In this document: piece after piece, positions 4,046-27,989 of the stretch
Layout of the letters: each line of letters begins with the position of its first letter
Numbering within the stretch: position 1 is the stretch's first letter
IMG/VR virus record: IMGVR_UViG_3300035670_000681
Coordinates: 1 to 36,783 of that record
From: a virus
Length of the DNA: 36,783 nt
Direction: 5' to 3' (one strand)
Notes under the pieces: model-generated
Told to the model about the DNA's origin: nothing
Database searches by the model: none
What the model saw: only the letters and a program-made list of their open reading frames with translations
Made by a program: the position numbers and the translations under genes

Positions 4046-4239
4046 TGCAAATATTTCCCTTCATGTTTAGCTAGTCCGGTTGCTTCTTCCTCAATGTACT
4101 CTATGGCTGCGATCAGCACTAAGTATACATCTAGTAGATCCATTGTATCAGTATGGTGGATGATAAACGAATCTTCCCCAATATTTAACAAGATCTGTTG
4201 TTTTATTGCATCATCCTTCTTGTTAGTGAGTCTCGACAT
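4042..4239 (-). CDS. Small hypothetical phage protein
   Basis: 65 residues, mostly helical and acidic toward the C-terminus (LIAAIEYIEEEATGLAKH), with no transmembrane segment or catalytic motif. AAAGG lies upstream of the ATG. The first 17 bases overlap the 3' end of the HNH gene inserted after the polymerase. Its stop overlaps the next start (ATGA). It was probably the direct neighbour of the polymerase gene before the HNH gene arrived. Confidence 0.65.
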   Translation of the reverse strand: MSRLTNKKDDAIKQQILLNIGEDSFIIHHTDTMDLLDVYLVLIAAIEYIEEEATGLAKHEGKYLQ

Positions 4240-4609
4240 ATTCAGCGGCCTTTCTTATTAATTCTGGATTATCTTGGAATAGGCCAAGTGCTCGGTTACA
4301 GTTGTGGCAAAGAAGTTTCCTAACTTTACCTGTCTTGTGATCGTGATCCACTGCAAGTTTTTCATTGTGGTTGTTTTTACCAATAAGAAACCCTTCAGAT
4401 CCGCACAAATAACACTTGTTGTCTTGTTCCTTCTTCATTGCTTCTAAGACAGAATCGTCAATACCATATGTTCGTCGGTAGTAGGCGTTCTTTCCTTTGC
4501 ATTTAGGAGAGCAATATACATTGCAAGGGTTTGTAGGAGTGAACACTTCTTTACAAGTTTTACACTCTTTATCTTTGAAATACCCATTAGGATACTTAGT
4601 GACAGTCAT
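4223..4609 (-). CDS. HNH endonuclease, endonuclease VII-like
   Basis: 128 residues. The C-terminal half has the recombination endonuclease VII/HNH signature: CYLCG (C66, C69), LAVDHDHKTGKVRKLLC (D88, H89, H91) and CHNCNRALG (C101, C104, N105). The N-terminal third carries further cysteines (16, 19, 29, 33, 37), probably a zinc-binding target-recognition module. Such free-standing HNH enzymes spread as homing elements in phages. It starts inside the last codons of the polymerase gene (ATG within the TGGTATGAC segment) and ends overlapping the next gene's start, so it sits exactly on a gene boundary. The polymerase C-terminus is intact. HNH and polymerase both end with CAC TAA. Confidence 0.88.
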   Translation of the reverse strand: MTVTKYPNGYFKDKECKTCKEVFTPTNPCNVYCSPKCKGKNAYYRRTYGIDDSVLEAMKKEQDNKCYLCGSEGFLIGKNNHNEKLAVDHDHKTGKVRKLLCHNCNRALGLFQDNPELIRKAAEYVETH

Positions 4610-6290
4610 ACCAATTAGCCCCTATTTTATATTCTGCACCCACAGGACATCTAAACTTCAAGATCTCCCCTGCTTCTTTTGCTGATTCTACCACAATTTT
4701 TCCAAGTTCTTCTGCGTAACCCGCTTCTGTTTCAAATTGTACTTCGTCGTGTACCCATGCAAGGAGCTTGTACGGAATCTTGGCCCTGTCGAGTTTCTTA
4801 GAAAAACAGACAAGCCATTGTTTAGAGATAATGGCTCCAGCCGATTGTAGAAGAGTATTGAGCGCACTGTGTTCCGATCTGACTGACAGTTTACGCCCAT
4901 CAAGACCCGGTAACCACCCTTTTTCAGCGTACTTAGCAACCTTGTTTTGAAGAACGGCGTAAGCAGGGATTGATTTTTGAAAGCGAGCAATAATGGCACG
5001 CCCTTTCGCTTCTGAAGCACCAATAATTGACCCGATCTTGGCAGGCGATGCCCCATAGAGACTGGCATAAAGTATTGTTTTTGCATCATTTCGTGAATCA
5101 ACACCAAACGCTTGCTGGTTTCTTGTATGGACATCACCATAAACTACTTCCTTTATGTAATCTTCATCGTTTAAGTAATGGGCAAAGCACCGAAGTTCAA
5201 TACCCGACAAATCAACACCAACCTGAACCATTCCTTCTTCCACAGTCCAGCATTGTCTACACTCCTTACCATACGGACTACCTGAGTTTGGTATTTGTGC
5301 CATGTTTGGTTTAGAGTGCGTAGCCCTGCCTGTTACAGCACCGTTAGTGATGACTCTACCGTGTACTCTACCGTCCTTACCTACAGCATCCATCCAAGAC
5401 TCAACCTGAGCTACTCGTTTCTGTAGCATCAAGTATTCAGCGATGATCTTTGCTTCAGGGAAGTCTAAGGCTACAAGCACTGCTTCGTCTACGATGGGCT
5501 GACCAGTAGGTGTGAACTTCTTAGGCTTCCAGCCTAGCTCAATTAGCTTTTCCCCGATCTGCTGTCTGCTTGCTGGATTAAAGGTAATTGTCTCATCCTT
5601 GAGTCTTTTTCCTGTCTTCTCGGAATATCGTTCCTTGGTGACGGGAGGCCACTGCTCCTGCATCTGCTCATAGATTCCTGCCATCTTTCCTTTGAGGTCA
5701 GCAAGTAAGCAAGTTGCGTAGATTGTGTCAAGTTTGAATCCATTGCGTTCCTGTTTAGCTATGATGCTTGCTACTTGGTGTTCGAGGGTAACAGACTCTT
5801 GAGAAAATCCTTTAGATTCGAGATCACTACAAAGACGCACAAAAAGATCCCGTAGAACAGCAACATCACGTACGCAGTAATGCTCAAGCAAATTAGGGAT
5901 AGGTTTATCAAAAGCTTCACCAGAGTATTCTTCAGGTCTACCAACCATCCAAGACCATACTTTTCCATAATCAATCTTTTCCTTTCCTAATTCGTTTCCC
6001 CATGCCTCTAGAGAGTGTCCTTTCTCCCTCGTCGGTTCTAGGAGCCTTGACACTACGAGAGTATCGTAGCCCTGCTTCAAGCCAATCTTCGTCCCCCAGA
6101 GCTTGTTCAACAGAGGAAAATCGAAGTTGATCCCGTGATGGGCTACTATCAACGTAGCGTCCTTTAAGTAGTCCCATAGGCCGTTTGGAGCTTTCCATAC
6201 TCTTACTTCCCCTGTGTCAATGTCCTGAGTTACGCACAAATGGATCGTATCGTGTGCCAAGTTCGTCTCTATGTCGAGAGCAATTCTCAT
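4596..6290 (-). CDS. Family A DNA polymerase (T7-like)
   Basis: A 564-residue replicative polymerase with 3'-5' exonuclease. Exonuclease ligands: ALDIET (D6, E8), NFDFP (D57) and YCVRDV (D142). Polymerase motif A is GVDLSGIELR (D360), motif B is RNDAKTILYASLYG (R400, K404, Y408) and motif C is WVHDEV (D515, E516). The region LDGRKLSVRSEHSALNTLLQ and the C-terminal NWYDCH match the T7 gp5 family. It is about 140 residues shorter than T7 gp5 (704). The shortfall lies before motif A, where T7 has its thioredoxin-binding insertion, so host thioredoxin may not be used (inference). The 5' end overlaps a small coiled-coil gene, and an HNH gene abuts the 3' end. Confidence 0.96.
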   Translation of the reverse strand: MRIALDIETNLAHDTIHLCVTQDIDTGEVRVWKAPNGLWDYLKDATLIVAHHGINFDFPLLNKLWGTKIGLKQGYDTLVVSRLLEPTREKGHSLEAWGNELGKEKIDYGKVWSWMVGRPEEYSGEAFDKPIPNLLEHYCVRDVAVLRDLFVRLCSDLESKGFSQESVTLEHQVASIIAKQERNGFKLDTIYATCLLADLKGKMAGIYEQMQEQWPPVTKERYSEKTGKRLKDETITFNPASRQQIGEKLIELGWKPKKFTPTGQPIVDEAVLVALDFPEAKIIAEYLMLQKRVAQVESWMDAVGKDGRVHGRVITNGAVTGRATHSKPNMAQIPNSGSPYGKECRQCWTVEEGMVQVGVDLSGIELRCFAHYLNDEDYIKEVVYGDVHTRNQQAFGVDSRNDAKTILYASLYGASPAKIGSIIGASEAKGRAIIARFQKSIPAYAVLQNKVAKYAEKGWLPGLDGRKLSVRSEHSALNTLLQSAGAIISKQWLVCFSKKLDRAKIPYKLLAWVHDEVQFETEAGYAEELGKIVVESAKEAGEILKFRCPVGAEYKIGANWYDCH

Positions 6291-10295: not shown

Positions 10296-10748
10296 TCATT
10301 TCCAAATCTGGTTTAAAACAACTCTACAAATTTGTTGTTTGCTTTGTTGGTATTTCGTTTGCAGTTCAGCATAAGATAAACCTTCTTTGTGGTCTTTCCT
10401 AATCAAATCTGCAATTTCTTTGCTTAAGTGACGATGTTTAGGATTGCGTCCGAATCTGTTTCTTCCCTTCCTTGTAGCATCGTCCGAGTTTTCTTTGTGT
10501 GTTCCGGCAAACAGATGTTCAGGGTTCACACAAGATGGATTGTCGCATGTGTGACAGATAACACACCCTGATGGAATACTTCCTTTGAAATACTCGTAAC
10601 TGTAGCGATGAGACTTAGCCATTTTCCACTTCCCATCAACTAAACGCCTAAAATGACCGTAACCCCCACGATATTTGCCTGCTTGCCATAGCCAACAAGT
10701 ATCAGTTTTCTGTACTTTTTCAATAAATCTATCAAATTCGTTACGCAT
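10296..10748 (-). CDS. HNH endonuclease (HNH_3 type)
   Basis: 150 residues of a free-standing homing-type nuclease. The N-terminal region contains CWLWQAG and GGYGHF. The core is [11 protein letters not shown], then [22 protein letters not shown] with C62, C65, H66, C68, C73 and H78, which is the HNH_3 zinc/active-site pattern. The C-terminal portion ([29 protein letters not shown]) looks like a helix-turn-helix for DNA recognition. AAAGGAGT precedes the ATG, and a sigma70-like promoter lies 28-55 bases upstream, so it may be expressed independently. It sits directly before a zinc-finger gene that has lost a normal start codon. Confidence 0.88.
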
Positions 10749-24891: not shown

Positions 24892-25545
24892 ATGGCTACT
24901 TACTTAGATGTAGTTAACAATGTACTGCGTAGGTTACGTGAGCCTACAGTGCAGAGTGTTGACGACACCCCTTATTCCTCTATGATTGGTGTCTTGGTTA
25001 ATGATGCCAAACGTGAAGTTGAAGATGCTACTGAGTGGAATGTACTGTCTTCCACTGTGACAATTAACACTGTTGCTGGCACTTACAACTACACCTTGAC
25101 AGATGCAGGTACTAGATTCCGTGTTATTGATGTTGTTAACGACACAGATAACATTGTGCTTCAGAATGCACCTACACACTGGATGACACAGCAGTTCCTG
25201 TTTACAGCTGATACTGACCGTGGTTCTCCTCTGTATTACAACTTTAACGGTGTAGACAATAACGGAGACACTCAAGTTGACCTTTATCAACGTCCTTCAG
25301 GTGTGTTTACCATCCGTTTTAACCTGATTGTCCCTCAGCCTACCTTGACATCAGACACAACCCGTATCTTGGTTCCTGACCACTTGGTGTCTATGTTGGC
25401 CTATGCTAAGGCTATCGCTGAACGTGGTGAAGATGGCGGTAACTTGTCATCAGAGGCCTATGCCCTGTACAAGAACTCCTTGGCTAACGAGATTGCCATT
25501 GAGCGTAATCGTTACTCTGAAGAGATGAACTGGGTGGCTCCTTAA
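24892..25545 (+). CDS. Tail adaptor protein (tubular protein A-like)
   Basis: 217 residues (MATYLDVVNNVLRRLREPTV...), with VNDAKREVEDATEWNVLSST and LPD-type PDHLVSMLAYAKAIAERGED near the C-terminus. Length and pattern match the gatekeeper/adaptor family that sits under the podovirus portal (T7 gp11, 196 residues). In T7 order it is followed by the nozzle protein, as here once the inserted HNH gene is discounted. It would link the portal to the short tail. Confidence 0.82.
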   Translation: MATYLDVVNNVLRRLREPTVQSVDDTPYSSMIGVLVNDAKREVEDATEWNVLSSTVTINTVAGTYNYTLTDAGTRFRVIDVVNDTDNIVLQNAPTHWMTQQFLFTADTDRGSPLYYNFNGVDNNGDTQVDLYQRPSGVFTIRFNLIVPQPTLTSDTTRILVPDHLVSMLAYAKAIAERGEDGGNLSSEAYALYKNSLANEIAIERNRYSEEMNWVAP

Positions 25546-25547
25546 TC

Positions 25548-26021
25548 ATGGCTGAACAACTCGTAGGATCATCCATTGCAGCTCCCGGCTTTAAGTTGAA
25601 ATGTTCGACTTGCAAAGAAGAAAAGGATACAACAAGCTTTTATAAAGCCTCCAATAAAAAAAGAGGTTATCAATGGAGCTGTATTTCTTGTTGTAAAGAC
25701 AAAAGAGATGAACATAAAAATAGCATGTCCTCAGAAGAATGGGCATTGCTCAATAAACAATACTGGCTAAAAACTGAATACGGCATTTCATTAGAAGACT
25801 ATAACCAACTGTTAAAACAACAAGAACATAAGTGTGCTATTTGTAAAACAGATGAGACTGATATTTTCCGTCAGACATTATATGTCGACCATTGTCATTT
25901 AACTGGGGTTGTCAGAGGTCTTCTATGTATGCAGTGTAATTCTGGACTAGGAAAATTTAAAGATTCTTTAGAACGCTTAGAAGCAGCTAAAGAATATCTA
26001 AGAAAGGTGACAAATGGCTGA
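25548..26021 (+). CDS. HNH endonuclease fused to a copied nozzle N-terminus
   Basis: 157 residues. Its first 16 (MAEQLVGSSIAAPGFK) are identical to the first 16 of the next gene, then a nuclease begins. It has a zinc-finger-like pair (C19, C22, C45, C48) and an endonuclease VII/HNH core (C96, C99, LYVDHCHLTG with D114, H115, H117, then C127, C130, N131). The gene is more AT-rich than its neighbours. It evidently inserted at codon 16 of the nozzle gene, using that gene's start signals, while a synonymously recoded copy of those 16 codons restores the nozzle start at 26014. The two genes overlap by eight bases. Confidence 0.9.
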   Translation: MAEQLVGSSIAAPGFKLKCSTCKEEKDTTSFYKASNKKRGYQWSCISCCKDKRDEHKNSMSSEEWALLNKQYWLKTEYGISLEDYNQLLKQQEHKCAICKTDETDIFRQTLYVDHCHLTGVVRGLLCMQCNSGLGKFKDSLERLEAAKEYLRKVTNG

Positions 26022-27552
26022 GCAGTTAGTAGGCTCTTCAATAGCTGCGCCGGGATTCAAAGGCTGCAATACTCAAGATAGTTCTGTAACTCTTGAGTCA
26101 GGGTTTGCCACGATTGCTAATAACTGTGTAATTGATAAGTTTGGTCGTATTGGTGCTCGTAAGGGTTGGTTGGCTAAGAACTCAACCAGCACTGACTTAG
26201 GTAGCAACCCTATTCAGGCCATTGGTGAACTTATCGGTAATGACGGTACTAGCTACACAATCTGTGCAGGAAATAATAAGCTGTTCTCCCTCTCAGGCGG
26301 TACACTGACTACTTTGACATACGGTGGTGGTGGATCAGCCCCTACAATCACAACTAACAACTGGCAGATGGCTCCTTTGAATGGGGTCTTGTATCTGTAC
26401 CAAGGCGGTTATGACCCCCTGATCTTTGATCCTGCTGTGTCTACAACCACGTTTAGGCGTGTTAATGAGAAGACAGGATCTCTAGGTACAGTAGCTCAGA
26501 ACAACTGTGCTATCAGTGCTTATGGTCGTATCTGGTCAGCTAACAACGCTACAAGTAAATCAATCATCCAGTTTAGTGACCTCCTTGCTGGACATATTGT
26601 GTCTACAGGTACTTCAGGTACTCTGGATGTTTCTGAGGTGTGGCCTAACGGTGCAGATGAGATTATTGCTCTAGCTGCTCACAACGGTTTCCTGTACATC
26701 TTTGGTCGTCGTCAGATCCTAGTGTACACAGGCGCTAACGATCCTGCTGCTATGTCTCTCCATGACACAGTATCTGGTATTGGCTGCTGTGCTCGTGACT
26801 CTGTAGCTTTGACTGGCACTGACGTTATTTTCTTGTCTGACAGCGGTGTACGTAGTCTCTCACGTACTATCCAAGAGAAGAGTGCTCCTTTCCGTGACAT
26901 TAGCGCTAATGTGCGTGATGATTTAGTAGAGGATCTTAATGCTGAAACATTGGCTAATATCAAGTCTGTATACTCGGACAGCAACGCTTTCTACCTTATT
27001 ACCTTCCCTACTAAGGGCAGAACATATTGTTTTGATACAAGGGCTGTACTCCCCAATGGTGCTGCAAGGGCTACAACATGGAGTCTAGTTCCTAAAGCCT
27101 TGTTCTCTAATCGTGCCAAAGAAGTCCTTATGGGCTTTACCAGCTACGTAGGTTATTACACTGGTAACTTAGACCGTACAGCTACCTACCGTATGGCCTA
27201 CTACTCTAACTGGTTTGACTTGGGACAATCTCAGGCAATCAAGATCTTGAAGAAGCTAGGCTTTACCCTTATCGGCGGTAATCAAGCTGACGTTATCGTT
27301 AAATATGCCTTTGATTACAACCCTACATATCAGACTAGAAACATCACTATGGGTTCTAGGTCAGTATCTGAGTACGGTACAGCTGAATGGGGATTAGCTG
27401 AGTGGACAGCAGGTGTTGTCTTTGATAATCAACGTATTCAAGGCTCTGGTAGCGGTACTGTATTCCAGTTTGGTATTGAGGTAGACATCAGTGATTTTGA
27501 ATTAAGCGTCCAGAAGATGGATTTGTTTGCGAAGATGGGACGGACAATTTAA
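26014..27552 (+). CDS. Tail nozzle/stabilisation-type protein
   Basis: 512 residues. The N-terminal signature APGFKGCNTQDSSVTLESGF, then NCVIDKFGRIGARKGW, is typical of the tubular protein B/stabilisation family of short-tailed phages (T7 gp12-like in position). A beta-propeller-like body follows, with repeated LYIFGRR and AYGRIWSA type blades. It would form the tail nozzle below the adaptor. HNH genes flank it on both sides, each carrying a recoded copy of one end of this gene. The C-terminal GRTI recurs at the end of the downstream HNH protein. Confidence 0.82.
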   Translation: MAEQLVGSSIAAPGFKGCNTQDSSVTLESGFATIANNCVIDKFGRIGARKGWLAKNSTSTDLGSNPIQAIGELIGNDGTSYTICAGNNKLFSLSGGTLTTLTYGGGGSAPTITTNNWQMAPLNGVLYLYQGGYDPLIFDPAVSTTTFRRVNEKTGSLGTVAQNNCAISAYGRIWSANNATSKSIIQFSDLLAGHIVSTGTSGTLDVSEVWPNGADEIIALAAHNGFLYIFGRRQILVYTGANDPAAMSLHDTVSGIGCCARDSVALTGTDVIFLSDSGVRSLSRTIQEKSAPFRDISANVRDDLVEDLNAETLANIKSVYSDSNAFYLITFPTKGRTYCFDTRAVLPNGAARATTWSLVPKALFSNRAKEVLMGFTSYVGYYTGNLDRTATYRMAYYSNWFDLGQSQAIKILKKLGFTLIGGNQADVIVKYAFDYNPTYQTRNITMGSRSVSEYGTAEWGLAEWTAGVVFDNQRIQGSGSGTVFQFGIEVDISDFELSVQKMDLFAKMGRTI

Positions 27553-27989
27553 TGTATACTTGTAAAAGATGCAATGAAGAAAAACCGTTAACCGAATACT
27601 ATAAAACAACTGATAGAAAATCAGGACATAAAACAATTTGTAAAGCTTGTATAAAAAAAGATCCGCTAAGCGAAAAAAAGAAAAAATACATGAGAGAATA
27701 TTCAAAAAAATATTCTTTAAAGACAAAATATAACTTAACTGAAAAAGACTATACGGATCTTTTAATAAAACAAAACCATAAGTGTGCAATTTGTGGGATA
27801 GATGCACAACAGCTTTCAAATAAAAAACTGTATGTTGACCATAACCATGAAACAGGAAAAGTTCGAGAACTTCTGTGTCATAATTGTAATGTAAGTTTAG
27901 GGCTAATGAAAGAATCTATTCAGACATTATCTAAGGCTATTGCCTATCTTGATAAACACAATGAACAGAAATTAGGACGGACTATATAA
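27552..27989 (+). CDS. HNH endonuclease fused to a copied nozzle C-terminus
   Basis: 145 residues. An N-terminal zinc-binding pair (C4, C7, C30, C33) is followed by a very Lys-rich linker and then an endonuclease VII/HNH core: C78, C81, LYVDHNHETGKVRELLC (D96, H97, H99), then C109, C112, N113. Its last four codons spell GRTI, as in the nozzle gene, with two third-position changes. The ATG overlaps the nozzle stop (TAATG). The gene is AT-rich, unlike its neighbours, indicating separate origin. It sits exactly at the boundary between the nozzle and the short fibre gene, and its copied end supplies the latter's upstream sequence. Confidence 0.9.
   Translation: MYTCKRCNEEKPLTEYYKTTDRKSGHKTICKACIKKDPLSEKKKKYMREYSKKYSLKTKYNLTEKDYTDLLIKQNHKCAICGIDAQQLSNKKLYVDHNHETGKVRELLCHNCNVSLGLMKESIQTLSKAIAYLDKHNEQKLGRTI

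Follow-up and report, generated by a model that had tools for sequence, protein, structure and literature searches.

The window analysed here, 36,783 nucleotides of viral DNA from IMG/VR record IMGVR_UViG_3300035670_000681 (its phage is called WIN below, and L-numbers denote the loci or contigs compared with it), probably carries a free-standing homing endonuclease element of the DHHRN type that brings its own recoded 5′ rescue segment. Judged against relatives without the insertion, a nuclease gene is shown to have entered a nozzle-like gene at codon 16/17, leaving the native first 16 codons upstream as the N-terminus of the nuclease. A synonymously different start (codons 1–18), equipped with its own Shine-Dalgarno-like motif, is shown by the same comparison to precede the remainder of the native gene.

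Layout of the nozzle locus

The features of the locus are the following, in window coordinates:

24892..25545, plus strand: SU10_adaptor gene (Pfam PF24175, 1.2e-14), directly 5′ of HNH1
25548..25595, plus strand: copy 1, native nozzle codons 1–16, now the HNH1 N-terminus; most close relatives without the insertion differ at 0 to 2 bases
25596..26021, plus strand: HNH1 body, Endonuclease VII-type (DHHRN); PF02945, 4.4e-25; catalytic residues invariant
26003..26010, plus strand: putative Shine-Dalgarno-like AAAGGTGA inside the HNH1 3′ end, for the rebuilt nozzle start
26014..26067, plus strand: copy 2, rebuilt and recoded nozzle start, codons 1–18; 16/51 versus 6/126 differences from L003
26068..27552, plus strand: remaining nozzle-like gene, native from codon 19; codons 19–40 almost identical to relatives
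27552..27989, plus strand: HNH2, a further Endo VII-type gene inserted at the 3′ end of the nozzle; PF02945, 3e-23
27969..27989, plus strand: native-looking nozzle 3′ end (KLGRTI and stop), now the HNH2 tail; AAATTAGGACGG...TAATATGAG matches the nozzle 3′ ends of relatives

The whole HNH1 gene thus spans 25548–26021 and the nozzle-like gene 26014–27552. The name nozzle is putative, taken from position and from PHROG connector and virion families that match weakly; the protein had only weak Rhizobium phage matches, and a DNA search of the isolate phage collection found no relative of the window. The adaptor stop adjoins the nozzle ATG in uninserted relatives, making the adaptor the native context of the start that HNH1 now uses. 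The HNH1 stop codon TGA lies within the rebuilt start ATGGCTGA, so that HNH1 ends 8 bases into the nozzle gene, an overlap that is ordinary because the same kind of 8-base overlap precedes unrelated genes. Elsewhere in the window, an Endo VII-type gene (4226–4609, minus strand) overlaps the end of a DNA polymerase gene, with no end duplication evident in the scan, and the fourth nuclease gene, which belongs to another type (HNH_3), occupies 10299–10748 on the minus strand.

Codons 1–16 at 25548–25595 and at 26014–26061 encode the same peptide, MAEQLVGSSIAAPGFK, with 14/48 bases and 13/16 codons differing, every change synonymous, and the similarity ends at codon 17. The shared start and its synonymous differences had been described in a sequence-only reading of this DNA and were reproduced here at the same coordinates; the recoding it described is real, but the altered tract extends past the 16 codons it had proposed to codon 18, since codons 17–18 read GGC TGC (G-C) in the window and GGG ATC (G-I) in relatives. 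In a scan for start duplications at 35 loci with Endo_7-type HNH open reading frames, the window gave the best start-to-start ungapped protein score, 77 where background scores are usually about 30 at most, which rules out chance similarity. Assembly error was likewise ruled out: the arrangement recurs in L083, a near-identical, independent contig, and two other phages, L084 and L085, share the architecture.

The residues of the DHHRN motif in HNH1 (D114, H115, H117, R123 and N131) and the cysteine pairs C96/C99 and C127/C130 are invariant in nine sequences; the Endo VII motif is C-terminal, and its D–R and R–N spacing equals that of F-CphI (D101-R110-N118). The structural model of HNH1 has a mean pLDDT of 82, and Foldseek with this model returned Hpy99I and T4 endonuclease VII at modest TM-scores. 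The first nine residues are predicted to be disordered, so the model suggests that the borrowed leader is a passenger. An Rfam search at E<=1 gave no intron RNA family, and splicing is unnecessary because HNH1 ends at a stop codon of its own and the nozzle begins at a separate start; a group I intron or intein was rejected on these grounds, in keeping with the earlier view of an element that uses neither.

The native start and the boundaries of the altered tract

The 80 top-ranked relatives of the nozzle gene were taken from viral contigs, and these samples are top-ranked hits and no census. Among the uninserted close relatives, the head of L010 is identical to copy 1 (0/48) and most others are 1–2 bases off, whereas copy 2 differs from them by 13–14 bases; copy 1, on the HNH1 side, is therefore native and the nozzle start is the replacement. 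The earlier proposal that the insertion took over the translation start of its target and rebuilt the nozzle start synonymously is borne out, since relatives without the nuclease have the HNH-side version only and none has both. The direction it gave to the copying is reversed: rather than the HNH gene having copied and recoded its target, it is HNH1 that retains the native codons, and the recoded copy belongs to the nozzle gene. As in mobile-ORF gene hybrids, a native part has been displaced and a diverged, foreign copy stands in its place.

In the window, codons 3–18 are unlike those of relatives and the native sequence returns exactly at codon 19. Codon 18 encodes Cys in place of the Ile or other aliphatic residue found in relatives. 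Compared with L003, the window has 16/51 differences in codons 2–18 and 6/126 in codons 19–60 (p=6e-6); here and in the other head/body tests the reference is the nearest relative, picked after the tract had been seen. The left junction follows codon 16 and the right junction follows codon 18; native codons 17–18 are therefore missing. Scored for atypical codon choice against 87 distinct native heads, the recoded copies of WIN, L084 and L085 are exceeded by 1, 2 and 3 natives, respectively, and the L055 head is moderate, with nine natives more atypical. A pattern for the head version with ATA and Cys18 had only three matches in the viral collection (L083, L084 and the contig of L015). With its few amino-acid changes, the recoded copy is probably a segment of a divergent ortholog brought in with the element and not a mutated local start.

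Other carriers, nuclease-free heads and a second gene

Among about 160 nozzle loci examined, five phages (WIN, L084, L085, L055 and L212) carry the same nuclease family at the same site, and relatives lack it there, the presence/absence pattern of a free-standing homing endonuclease. Every carrier has an altered nozzle head of 18–28 codons, sharply bounded in four of the five. The architecture that the earlier reading had suggested seeking in other phages was found in L084 and L085, which share the fused 16-codon start with WIN. In L055 and L212 the nuclease begins at the native ATG and there is no copy 1, so fusion to the native start is dispensable; the altered tract of this second subtype is codons 2–28, versus 3–18 in the window. 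L212 and the uninserted L057 are the cleanest occupied/empty pair in the sequences compared, with 3/300 differences upstream, 28/81 in the head (codons 2–28) and 2/216 in the body (p=8e-16). L055 differs from L156 at 26/81 bases in codons 2–28 and 1/216 thereafter (p=2e-15). The WIN and L055 pairs are not isogenic, because their upstream flanks differ from those of the best available relatives. The signal is weaker in L084 (11–12/51 versus 6–8/126, p=0.0005–0.005), and for L085, which has no close uninserted relative to compare, the head boundary is indistinct (p=0.012). Amino-acid changes in the rebuilt heads comprise C18 in WIN and A11, Q16 and D28 in L055; in L084 the two copies are identical in amino acids, copy 2 matching the local residues I5, A7 and M16. 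An AAGG-type motif precedes the rebuilt ATG in all five carriers and is absent at the native starts compared; we infer that this Shine-Dalgarno-like motif serves the rebuilt nozzle start. In L085 a different HNH-like open reading frame (4960–5499) lies directly 3′ of the nozzle, so that there, too, the gene is flanked by nuclease-like genes. In L012 and L016, and likewise in L028, about 50 extra bases with a small open frame and no nuclease lie between adaptor and nozzle.

Recoded heads also occur without such a nuclease in the available contig sequence of L015, L073, L074, L079 and L081; a head-versus-body screen flagged these five together with the carriers L055 and L084, in a list that also contained a few pairs with small counts. 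L015 differs from L008 at 15/51 bases in codons 2–18 and 0/126 in codons 19–60 (p=1.5e-9). Codons 1–4 are native in L015 and codons 1–7 in L073, L079 and L081, the rest of the head being recoded. The head of L074 is identical to that of L212 (0/81) on the same background as L057, which suggests that the nuclease can be lost and the recoded allele retained. Overall, the nuclease-free heads could reflect nuclease loss, or transfer of the recoded tract by itself through recombination. The earlier idea that recoding prevents loss by recombination is doubtful, since five nuclease-free relatives have the recoded start; apparently the nuclease can be lost, or the start can spread independently of it.

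Three phages, each with a different HNH type, have a related layout at the start of DUF5131, a gene unrelated to the nozzle. In L102, from the scan of Endo VII loci, the nuclease starts VGEATKIEWTDS and the next gene, DUF5131, starts VAEETKIEWCDS; its closest uninserted relative stands at just 67%. Scanning 80 DUF5131 loci yielded L263 and L300, whose first copies are the same as the starts of the uninserted L298 and L284 over 11–12 codons. In L263 a NUMOD3/HNH gene (804–1508), encoded on the opposite strand, separates a truncated native DUF5131 start from the rebuilt one, so the layout needs no fusion to the nuclease; compared with L274, the rebuilt head has 21/51 base differences and the sequence after it 13/126 (p=7e-6), and the head includes several amino-acid changes. 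The L300 insert has a PHROG HNH match (1e-8) and no Pfam match, its altered head is about six codons long, and genome contigs scanned with its nuclease gave no relative. No start duplication was present in seven isolate DUF5131 loci or at T7-like gene 13.5 nucleases; of the other Endo VII loci that were examined, L102 alone had one. The DUF5131 cases are supportive of the nozzle case and are not exact repeats of it.

At the other end of the gene, the nozzle ends in KMGRTI (27532–27552), and the HNH2 tail, KLGRTI and stop, resembles native nozzle ends with few base changes. The sequence may thus mean that the last ~7 codons of the nozzle were rebuilt by HNH2, a mirror-image arrangement with a short tract. 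A homolog of HNH2 lies at the same site in L016, with its tail in another frame.

Mechanism, alternatives and known systems

In the mechanism we propose, the nuclease would cut the native head of the nozzle-like gene, the element would be copied into the native allele by break repair, and the recoded segment would both restore the gene and remove the target. The specificity region is predicted to be codons ~10–18 and just beyond, because the sharply bounded heads and the nuclease-free heads share recoding there. A 29-base native string (codons 11–20), which may correspond to the real target, is present in uninserted relatives; a search of the window that allowed up to 3 mismatches did not find it. 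The left native part survives in copy 1, and copy 2 is native only from codon 19, so that an intact site is present nowhere in the carrier; if the nuclease reads across codons 16–19, as the layout would allow, neither copy would be cut. The earlier proposal that recoding would protect the restored site from the nuclease is compatible with what the carriers show. Nuclease loss would then leave a recoded, presumably immune, allele.

The presence of recoded heads in nuclease-free phages would also be expected of ordinary mosaic recombination, in which HNH genes mark the boundaries of recombined segments and the head is a divergent allele that came along from another phage and plays no part in resistance. 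Nuclease genes have been reported at phage genetic exchange boundaries (PMC10448857), and the residues C18 in WIN and A11, Q16 and D28 in L055 suggest a foreign ortholog; however, the foreign tract is just 18–28 codons long, ends abruptly, is mostly synonymous and recurs directly 3′ of the nuclease in carriers. Mosaic recombination accounts for the origin of the copy but not for its repeated link to the nuclease, and we regard it as unlikely. Much less probable is a local duplication of the start at insertion, after which the second copy drifted by neutral synonymous change; this would explain why the copies in WIN and L084 are identical in amino acids. Copy 1 lies 0–2 changes from relatives versus 13–14 for copy 2, the altered tract takes in codons 17–18, which are absent from copy 1, and the unusual codons and C18 are common to WIN, L084 and L015 in a version that only three stretches of the viral collection match; in its simple form, duplication with drift is already refuted.

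It is hardly credible that the nuclease is no homing enzyme at all (a junction resolvase, for example) and that its position is incidental. Pfam and PHROGs do label the HNH1 domain as recombination endonuclease VII, but the patchy presence at one exact site, the linked head replacement and the C-terminal motif with its F-CphI-like spacing argue against this. Several points weigh against the homing element with a rescue segment that we prefer: the recoded heads could be ordinary divergent alleles that arrived by recombination, without selection for resistance, and the local amino acids in copy 2 of L084 are unexpected from a purely foreign segment unless it was later adapted. The missing copy 1 in L055 and L212, the indistinct boundary in L085 and the non-isogenic WIN and L055 pairs count on the same side, and among the viral contigs compared none emerged as a donor of the recoded heads.

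Several known systems share parts of this arrangement. The HNH insertion in the methylase of phage ShiLan (PMC11855218) likewise lies in a coding gene with no intron or intein; it stays open in the frame of its host gene, whereas here the gene restarts with a rebuilt 5′ end. T4 SegF, SegG and the mob genes (PMC2988022) are also free-standing and intron-free and co-convert their flanks; they cut at some distance from their own insertions, and the text searched mentions no duplicated recoded gene start for them. F-CphI (PMC6083498) is a free-standing phage nuclease with the same C-terminal catalytic motif and matching residues; it spares its own genome by means of an intron in the target gene (collaborative homing), whereas no intron RNA family was detected here.

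The closest precedent is the mobile-ORF gene hybrids of fungal mitochondria, in which mobile ORFs bring foreign C-termini that restore the gene, as in Glomus atp6, atp9, cox2 and nad3 (PMC3630166). In both, an endonuclease ORF is accompanied by a diverged stretch of its target gene by which that gene is made whole again, most of the differences are synonymous, and the displaced native piece matches close relatives (PMC3630166). The fungal hybrids concern the C-terminus, mitochondria and LAGLIDADG or GIY-YIG enzymes, whereas here the replaced part is an N-terminus and translation start, the genome is that of a phage, the enzyme is of the DHHRN type and carries the displaced native start as a fusion, and nuclease-free recoded alleles are also seen. 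HNH1 thus replaces an N-terminus and not, as in the fungal type, a C-terminus, with HNH2 as a possible 3′ version of ~7 codons. A hybrid of this kind, Allomyces atp6, was reportedly described by Paquin in 1994. No phage example of a rebuilt start was found in the literature searched, most subscription papers falling outside its scope.

Reworded repair would add to introns and inteins another route by which a nuclease can occupy a conserved, probably essential coding site. Since empty, occupied and nuclease-free recoded states exist in close relatives, the gain/loss cycle of homing and the evolution of resistance become directly testable. The engineered home-and-rescue gene drive HomeR reportedly places a nuclease in an essential gene together with a recoded, cleavage-resistant rescue; it is synthetic, Cas9-based and made for insects, so the shared design logic is an analogy without homology. 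Whether phages harbour natural home-and-rescue drives more generally, with different nuclease types at different genes and with recoded alleles as transferable immunity, we judge to be evenly poised on these sequences; such elements would be a natural precedent for recoded-rescue gene drives.
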